From Lysobacterales bacterium (lineage in GTDB: Bacteria; Pseudomonadota; Gammaproteobacteria; Nevskiales; Salinisphaeraceae), in NCBI GenBank assembly GCA_002715985.1, contig PBAO01000015.1, forward strand, positions 4,978-68,977: 64,000 bases of DNA, read 5' to 3'. The notes beneath the pieces were generated by a model. That model had not been told where the DNA came from, made no database searches, and saw only the letters and a list, made by a program, of their open reading frames with translations. This document shows positions 18,464-20,968 of the stretch, piece after piece (positions within the stretch are counted from its first letter, which is position 1; each line of letters opens with the position of its first letter). Made by a program: the position numbers and the translations under genes.

Positions 18464-18958
18464 TCAGGCGTAGTCCGCCGCCATCTCGTTCGTGATCTTC
18501 AAATCCTTCTTCGTGTGCTTGGCGATCGGCCCGGCCACCGCTTTTTCGACCTTGCCGCCGATCAGGGGAATCGAGGCATCGATCTCGTAGGCCAGCGTCA
18601 TGCGCGATCCGTTGCCCCGATTTTCCAGATGCATGTCGGCATGGATGGCCACCGGGGCTTTTTCGATATCGATATCGATACGGCCACGGGCCTGGTCGAG
18701 CTGCCAGGCATCAGTCTGCTTGAGATAAAGATTGTCGCCCAGCCGGCTCTTGATGAAATCGGGAAAGCTCATGCGCGAGGCATCGAGGGCATGGCGCACG
18801 GTGATGGAGAACTTGTCGCCTTCGGCCTTGGTGTCCAGCACTTCGGGGGCGTCGCCGCCCATGCGTTCGTATTTCTTCAGGTAATAATCCTTGTCGCCGA
18901 ACATCTTGAGGATGGTCTCGGCGGGATAATCGAAATCGAAGGTTTCCTCGAACTTCAT
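18464..18958 (-). CDS. DUF2505/SRPBCC-like domain protein
   Basis: MKFEETFDFDYPAETILKMFGDKDYYLKKYERMGG; overlaps the next gene by 4 bp. Confidence 0.8.
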   Translation of the reverse strand: MKFEETFDFDYPAETILKMFGDKDYYLKKYERMGGDAPEVLDTKAEGDKFSITVRHALDASRMSFPDFIKSRLGDNLYLKQTDAWQLDQARGRIDIDIEKAPVAIHADMHLENRGNGSRMTLAYEIDASIPLIGGKVEKAVAGPIAKHTKKDLKITNEMAADYA

Positions 18959-20388
18959 ACGTCGTCCTTTGAAGCTTCAGATCCGGCGTCCGGCCGGATG
19001 CGTCCGTGTTCTTGATAGAGATAGTGGGCCAGCATGTCATGGGCGTTGTATTCGGCGTCGAGTACCGACATGAGCACGAACACACCGCCGAGCCGGCGAT
19101 GCAGGAACACGATCTCGCGCGGCGGGATCCGAAACCAGCGCGAGATGGCGGCATCCTGTACCGCCCGCGATACACGCCAGAACAGATCCGACTCGCCCCA
19201 TTTGTATTGATGATCCGTGGTGGCGAACTCCGCCGGCGGCTGTCGCATAAACGGCTCGATGATCAGCATGCCCACCCGGGCGAAGTCATCGAAGACCTGC
19301 TGCGGCGAGTCGCGGCGCAGCAGGCTGATGCCGATCGCCCCGTCGATGAGCTTCTGCTGGTCGTGCTCGAAGGCGCCGGCCACGGTGTCGTAATAGGCGC
19401 CCAGAAAACGGGGCGCGAATTCACGCGTGGCGCCGAAATCCAGCAGCACGAACTTGTCATCGTCGCCGGCCTCGTCCACGCGAATCTTGTAGTTGCCGAA
19501 ATGCGGGTCGGTCTGGACGATGCCCCAATCGAAGAATTCGAGAAAGAACAGCTCCAGCGCGGCGCCGCCCAGGCGATTGCGCCGGGGCTGTGGCAGGGCC
19601 TTCACGGCTTCGCTCTGAACATGACTGGCGGCCTCGAATGAGGTGACCAGTACGGTTTCGGTCGAATATTCGGGAAACACGTCGGGCACGACATAGCGAT
19701 CGTCGTCGGCCAGACGCTCGCCGAACTCGCGCGTCATGCGCAGCTCGCGGTCGTAATCGACCTCGCGATAGATCATCTCGCGCACTTCTTCCATGATCGC
19801 GTTGAGCTCGATGCCCTTGGGCACGAGCCGCGCCAGGCGCACGATATTGGTCAAAGTACGGATATCCGAGTCGATGGCATCAGCCAGCTGCGGATACTGG
19901 ATCTTGATACAGAGCTCGCGCCCGTCGGATTTGCGCCGTGCGCGGTGCACCTGACCGAGCGAGGCCGCCGCCAAGGGCTCCTCGTCGATCTCCAGTTCCG
20001 CCAGACGCTCGGCGCCCAGACGTTCGCGCACCACCGGGGCCAGATCGCCCCAGGCCACCGGCGGGCTGTCGTCCTGCAGGCTGCGCAGCACCTCGATGGC
20101 TTCCGGCGGCATGAAGTACTGGCCATAGACCGAGAGCATCTGGCCCACCTTCATGACGCTGCCCTTCAACTGGCCGAGCTCATCGGCCAGAAACTGGGCC
20201 TGGCGCACGTAGAACTCGCGGTTGCGGGCCTCACGATCGGATTTGCTGCGAAACAGATTGCCGAACGTATGCGTGGCGTACGACGCACCGGCCATCATCC
20301 CCATACGGGCCATCGCGGCGTTGCGATCGAACGACCCGGTCTTGAGTTTGAGCGGCTTGCGCTTGTCGCTCTTGGAGTTATTCGCCAT
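18955..20388 (-). CDS. ABC1/AarF (UbiB-like) atypical kinase family protein
   Basis: SVMKVGQMLSVYGQYFMPPEAIEVLRSLQDDSPPVAW, AAASLGQVHRA, QTDPHFGNYKI, LLDFGATREF; start at MANNSKSDKRK chosen over the upstream ORF start. Confidence 0.88.
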   Translation of the reverse strand: MANNSKSDKRKPLKLKTGSFDRNAAMARMGMMAGASYATHTFGNLFRSKSDREARNREFYVRQAQFLADELGQLKGSVMKVGQMLSVYGQYFMPPEAIEVLRSLQDDSPPVAWGDLAPVVRERLGAERLAELEIDEEPLAAASLGQVHRARRKSDGRELCIKIQYPQLADAIDSDIRTLTNIVRLARLVPKGIELNAIMEEVREMIYREVDYDRELRMTREFGERLADDDRYVVPDVFPEYSTETVLVTSFEAASHVQSEAVKALPQPRRNRLGGAALELFFLEFFDWGIVQTDPHFGNYKIRVDEAGDDDKFVLLDFGATREFAPRFLGAYYDTVAGAFEHDQQKLIDGAIGISLLRRDSPQQVFDDFARVGMLIIEPFMRQPPAEFATTDHQYKWGESDLFWRVSRAVQDAAISRWFRIPPREIVFLHRRLGGVFVLMSVLDAEYNAHDMLAHYLYQEHGRIRPDAGSEASKDDV

Positions 20389-20420
20389 GGCGTGTGCGGG
20401 CTGTCGGCATATCGACAAGT

Positions 20421-20734
20421 CTAGGGCCTGTTGCCGTTTCATGCGAGCGCCGCTTTCCTCGAGAGTCCGCAGTGTGTCCTGCAAGACGCGAGTTGCGGCT
20501 CTGGCTGTGCCACGGTCGAGACGCGCCGGCGCCAGTGCGTCCTTGTTCGGTTTTTCACGGGCGGCCGAAGTCTTCGGGACAAACGCCCTTCCATTCACAA
20601 CACGTCGGCCGTCCAGCGTCCCAGCCCACCGGCGCCGAATGACACGCCGAGCGAGCTACGCCTTGTCTGGACGCCTATAGTCAGTTTCATGGAGCGCTTG
20701 GCGCGGATTCGCATGAAACGGCAACAGGCCCTAG
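20421..20734. mobile_element. MITE-like non-autonomous element, 22-bp TIRs with CTAG flanks
   Basis: CTAGGGCCTGTTGCCGTTTCATGCGA at 20421-20446 is the exact reverse complement of 20709-20734 (TCGCATGAAACGGCAACAGGCCCTAG); no transposase ORF inside. Confidence 0.75.
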
Positions 20735-20783: not shown

Positions 20784-20812
20784 AAAAAAGGCCCGGTCAT
20801 GGACCGGGCCTT
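20784..20812 (-). terminator. rho-independent terminator downstream of tRNA-Met
   Basis: Minus strand AAGGCCCGGTCCATGACCGGGCCTTTTTT. Confidence 0.88.
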
Positions 20813-20892: not shown

Positions 20893-20968
20893 TGGTGGCC
20901 ATGGCTGGAATTGAACCAGCGACACCAGCATTATGAATGCTGTGCTCTAACCCCTGAGCTACATGGCC
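20893..20968 (-). tRNA. tRNA-Met (CAT), elongator-like
   Basis: Minus strand GGCCATGTAGCTCAGGGGTTAGAGCACAGCATTCATAATGCTGGTGTCGCTGGTTCAATTCCAGCCATGGCCACCA; full cloverleaf, CAT anticodon, encoded CCA. Confidence 0.95.

Follow-up and report, generated by a model that had tools for sequence, protein, structure and literature searches.

The ABC1/UbiB-like gene in the 64,000-bp window, the whole stretch of Salinisphaera DNA that was analysed, is preceded by a long inverted repeat. This raises the question whether a mobile element has entered the promoter of the gene, and what would have moved it there. A preliminary description had read the repeat as a MITE-like element, with a CTAG duplication as is frequent in the IS5 group, and had proposed to look for further copies, for empty sites in relatives and for a full-length IS with the same ends. 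The 26-bp inverted match CTAGGGCCTGTTGCCGTTTCATGCGA that it reported is real and exact at 20421-20446 and 20709-20734. With up to 3 mismatches allowed, the sequence was not seen elsewhere in the window, and it did not occur in 100 shuffles. The match had been parsed as a 306-bp element with 22-bp terminal inverted repeats (TIRs) and a 4-bp duplication of CTAG. A 308-bp element with 23-bp TIRs and a TA duplication is the better parse (Table 1), and the inner G and C of the flanking CTAG can belong to the element because CTAG is palindromic.

Those ORFs over the 308-bp element that were tested gave no Pfam match even at E<=1, in line with the earlier statement that it holds no transposase ORF. 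No Rfam family covered the element. With 308 bp and TIRs of 23 bp it falls within the size definition of a MITE (under about 500 bp, TIRs of about 4-30 bp; PMC10969869); the transposase gene is absent, copies occur at multiple unrelated loci, and a target duplication and empty sites in relatives were found. The element in the window is a genuine MITE, and the earlier MITE-like reading is supported by the many copies, the empty sites and IS5-family elements with near-identical ends.

Table 1. Positions of the MITE and of neighbouring features in the window.
Feature	Position	Strand	Remarks
MITE, 308 bp, 64% G+C, without transposase	20424..20731	none	bounds set by the TIRs, by flank variants and by empty sites
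Terminal inverted repeat, gene-proximal end	20424..20446	+	23 bp, perfect
Terminal inverted repeat, distal end	20709..20731	-	23 bp, perfect
TA target duplication, gene-proximal copy	20422..20423	none	within flanking CTAG; from flank variants and empty sites
TA target duplication, distal copy	20732..20733	none	within flanking CTAG; from flank variants and empty sites
TAGACT, predicted -10 hexamer of the ABC1 promoter	20418..20423	-	rebuilt by the duplicated TA; from congener comparison
Interior hairpin region	20474..20540	none	alignment columns 51-120; pairing kept across copies
ABC1/UbiB-like atypical kinase gene	18955..20388	-	477 aa + stop; downstream of insertion
Terminator-like hairpin with T run	20790..20805	-	between tRNA-Met and MITE
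tRNA-Met(CAT)	20893..20968	-	upstream neighbour, conserved in relatives

The window copy is one member of a genus-wide non-autonomous MITE of Salinisphaera, a new family of a known kind. Among 61 genomes searched in the order, the family was present in 14/14 of Salinisphaera and in 0/47 of the others. The draft genome of the window (G000, 82% complete) contained 62 matching pieces and 37 TIR-like sites, and 109 TIR sites were found in the closed genome of a relative (G008), so that the search for multiple copies was answered in the own genome and in congeners. When 84,980 species genomes were scanned for the exact TIR, at least 80 stretches were obtained; the matches listed belonged to Salinisphaera and to one set labelled Endozoicomonas sp. 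G2_2. No match to the MITE was found in plasmid records. We compiled 134 copies with both ends; their lengths lie mostly in the range 257-318 bp. The TIR consensus of the full copies (about 257-318 bp) was close to GGGC(C/G)TGTTG(CC/AG/AT)GTTTC(A/G)T(G/A)CGA, and the G+C content of the family was 63-64%. Among the copies seen, the nearest to the window copy reach about 78% identity within the draft genome of the window and 83% in S. japonica (G013), the closest genome. Judged by these identities, the window copy stands outside any visible recent burst, and its source copy is none of those seen.

Some further observations were made on the copies. The records labelled Endozoicomonas sp. G2_2 (NZ_JAGHQU; L249, L272, L297, L304 and L314) carry the MITE family and match the genus member G009; the label is probably wrong. 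Two copies in the draft genome have the same flank of roughly 85 bp in opposite orientation, to the right of L006 and to the left of L020, which suggests a duplication, a rearrangement or an assembly effect. Within the window, a 25-bp stretch at 41589-41613 matches a portion of some MITE copies at 88% identity (E about 0.005) and is possibly a MITE fragment or a chance match. In G008, two TIR-bounded segments, L135:7438-8426 (989 bp) and L134:6677-8904 (2228 bp), contain host-type genes and no transposase. A reading of these 1-2 kb segments as mobile gene cassettes was rejected, since the L135 genes were matched without the TIR in most other species, the matches starting just inside the TIR. 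The L135 segment is probably half of an element that sits next to resident genes.

The target site was analysed from the flanks of the 134 copies. CTAG was present on both sides in 44/134, followed by the YTAR classes TTAG...CTAG (9), CTAG...CTAA (8) and TTAG...CTAA (5), together 22 copies with variant flanks. None of the 134 copies had the same YTAR 4-mer, other than CTAG, in its two flanks. A 4-bp CTAG duplication, tested by comparing left and right k-mers for identity and by permutation, was rejected, no such non-CTAG pair being present. Permutation tests of the flanks alone did not fix the duplication length. For one copy in the draft genome flanked by TTAG...CTAA, the empty site in S. japonica is clean and reads GCGTTAAACT, with TTAA, as predicted by a TA duplication. 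The 22 variant YTAR flanks and this clean TTAA site argue for a duplication of TA and not of CTAG. The results are best read as entry of the family into the TA of YTAR (mostly CTAG) with duplication of the TA, the inner G and C being part of the element. Several other empty-site comparisons were not clean, the S. japonica allele showing TIR remnants or other changes. At the S. japonica sites L317 and L333, which are orthologous to two MITE copies of the draft genome, short TIR-like remnants were seen (CAACAGGCCCTAA, CAACAGGTCCTAA). CTAG was observed 15 times in the window vs about 37 expected from trinucleotides, so the preferred target is scarce.

At the window locus, the insertion was absent in 13/13 other Salinisphaera genomes, and the empty sites that had been sought are present in all of these congeneric relatives. 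Upstream of the ABC1 gene they read TGCTAGACT (6) or TGATAGACT (7), and in the three relatives outside the genus but within the family this position reads TGCTACAAT or TGCTAAACT. The empty-site motif conserved in the congeners is TG(C/A)TAGACT, which we take to be an extended -10 element; the MITE is inserted at its CTAG. In front of TAGACT, the 13 congeners have TGC or TGA and the window has the CCC of the TIR (GGCCC-TAGACT). TAGACT and most of the sequence down to the ATG are kept in the window copy, and the TG extension is lost.

We propose that the lineage of the window acquired the MITE after its split from S. japonica, and that the insertion cut through TGCTAGACT, the extended -10 promoter of the ABC1/UbiB-like gene. 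On the gene side TAGACT was rebuilt by the duplicated TA, and the TG extension was displaced by 310 bp, together with the native promoter DNA upstream. By this comparison of sequences, the ABC1 promoter may have been weakened or rewired. The earlier claim of a changed 5' region is thereby sharpened to an insertion inside a conserved extended -10 element with a predicted effect on the promoter.

Alternatively, the MITE could be a real but neutral passenger that leaves the ABC1 promoter effectively unchanged, the TIR or the interior giving sufficient upstream contacts. The retained TAGACT and downstream sequence agree with this, and other MITE copies also abut TAGACT, TAAACT or TAGAAT just upstream of ORF starts, so that insertions seem to be tolerated. 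However, the lost TG extension is common to all 13 congeners and the three relatives from other genera, and a search around the MITE/ABC1 junction gave no pair of sigma-70-like hexamers. Since a terminator-like hairpin lies between the tRNA-Met and the MITE, read-through is unlikely to serve as a replacement. An unchanged promoter is possible, and we consider it somewhat improbable.

Since the YTAR/CTAG target looks like the beginning of a -10 box (TAGACT, for example), the family may, beyond the cut promoter of the ABC1 gene, in general prefer to enter promoters or survive in them; the TA duplication regenerates the -10 hexamer there, and the family would be a genus-wide promoter-rewiring module. 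The flank contexts were compared with mechanical ORF calls. Where a flank looks towards an ORF start within 100 bp, position 6 from the TA was a T in 28/80 cases, vs 9/64 where it looks towards an ORF end (p = 0.007, uncorrected). Fourteen flank positions were tested, of which two others had p of about 0.02-0.03, and the position-6 signal is weak after correction. Enrichment of strict -10 hexamers at the MITE junctions was not significant. The T bias at position 6, on which the proposal is based, is suggestive only, and we think a genus-wide module unlikely. If true, promoter DNA upstream would be exchanged again and again by the family, with the start point kept.

The likely mobiliser was found in congeners. 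DDE_Tnp_1 loci in G001, G003, G006 and G007 lie between paired TIRs at a spacing of 859-864 bp. These IS5-family elements have flanks of the form C-TA...TA-G or C-TA...TA-A and the ends TAGGGC(C/G)TGTTG(CC/AG/AT)GTTTC. Their transposases were assigned to NCBIfam IS5_3 with 258 and 267 bits (cut-off 110) and contain the domains DUF4096 and DDE_Tnp_1; stops or frame changes interrupt some of the IS copies, and open frames of 269-271 codons are present. The elements presumably resemble the IS427-type subgroup. The earlier pointer to the IS5 group is supported, with bracketed transposases of the IS5_3 type and a YTAR/CTAG target with TA duplication.

The MITE has the terminal 17-18 bp, the TIR variants and the C-TA..TA-R flanks in common with the IS5_3 elements (L105, L106, L116, L118, L119 and L133). 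Further similarity was short and at chance level. Whereas the ISs carry a transposase, the MITE has none, and its interior shows no visible IS origin and was not recognisable as a deleted IS. Variation at one end of a MITE copy goes with that at the other, with 116/134 matches at TIR positions 11-12 vs 70 by shuffling, a figure that partly reflects the relatedness of the copies. Ends are thus shared with an IS5-family transposon of the same genus. An autonomous partner was not found in the 82% complete draft genome of the window; no IS5_3 relative with MITE-type ends was present there, in G008 or in G013, all of them copy-rich. The proposed search for a full-length IS led to near-identical ends in congeners, but no full IS with the exact TIR of the window copy was found. 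From the shared ends, the MITE would be mobilised by an IS5_3-type IS, whose transposase most likely acts in trans. Taken together, we consider it highly probable that a Salinisphaera-wide MITE, which targets the TA of YTAR and is moved in trans by an IS5_3 mobiliser, has cut the extended -10 promoter of the ABC1 gene.

An IS630/mariner-type transposase was also considered as the mobiliser. A TA duplication, often in CTAG, is typical of this type as well, and DDE_3 transposases are encoded in 5/14 genomes. However, the DDE_3 element that is multicopy in G008 has ends unrelated to those of the MITE, and among the loci fetched no DDE_3 gene was bracketed by a MITE-family TIR pair; the bracketed genes were IS5_3. 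By its ends, this mobiliser is disfavoured and very improbable. An ancestral, immobile inverted repeat conserved in the intergenic region, for which nothing but the intergenic position speaks, is refuted by the empty locus in the 13 congeners and the same element at many unrelated loci, and its probability is negligible.

On contig C9 of G013 (L093:41-110), the sequence leading to a DDE_3 (IS630-type) gene starts at a CTAG beside a MITE end. This suggests that both types of element use CTAG.

The description of prokaryotic MITEs in a 2024 review (PMC10969869) fits the window element, and promoter effects are reported there for Correia and others. The Correia elements of Neisseria are short, transposase-less, bounded by TIRs and high in copy number, are often near genes and have known promoter effects (PMC10969869). 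The Salinisphaera MITE is likened to them by description in all but the last feature; it differs in the host group, and no internal promoter was found in the MITE. Likewise by description, it resembles Chunjie of Geobacter and QMITE of Coxiella (tens of copies, about 40-400 bp, many truncated, TIRs best conserved; PMC10969869) in copy number, size, truncation and TIR conservation. Prokaryotic MITEs are typically AT-rich (PMC10969869), whereas this family is G+C-rich (63-64%). Our literature search found no paper joining Salinisphaera and miniature inverted-repeat elements, and the family is apparently undescribed. Two papers in which Salinisphaera and insertion sequences are both named have other subjects by title and abstract. 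The MITE is documented here as a genus-wide family, for which an IS5-type mobiliser is likely and the target is exact. The window copy is a clean but fairly ordinary case of a known kind of mobile DNA. It offers a natural experiment, with one clean insertion in a promoter core that the genus otherwise conserves, in front of a gene for an ABC1/UbiB kinase, a family that is poorly understood.

Strong folding was predicted for both strands of the 308-bp element (z -5.3 and -7.0). In an alignment of 40 copies, pairing was above that in controls made by shuffling and sliding; the excess lay chiefly in the TIR stem and also in an interior hairpin, where columns 51-58 with 113-120 showed changes on both sides in 4/8 pairs. 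The conserved pairing could reflect constraint or subfamily descent.

The product of the downstream gene contains the ABC1 domain (PF03109, 174 bits), which upholds its earlier identification as an ABC1 kinase; its score against the UbiB equivalog model falls well short of the cut-off. The likely start of the gene is the ATG at 20388 on the minus strand, at a measured 35 bp from the MITE edge instead of the ~32 bp given before. The frame is open back through the MITE to a GTG at 20598 (18955-20598, minus strand), and automatic annotation may add about 70 false residues to the ABC1 protein.
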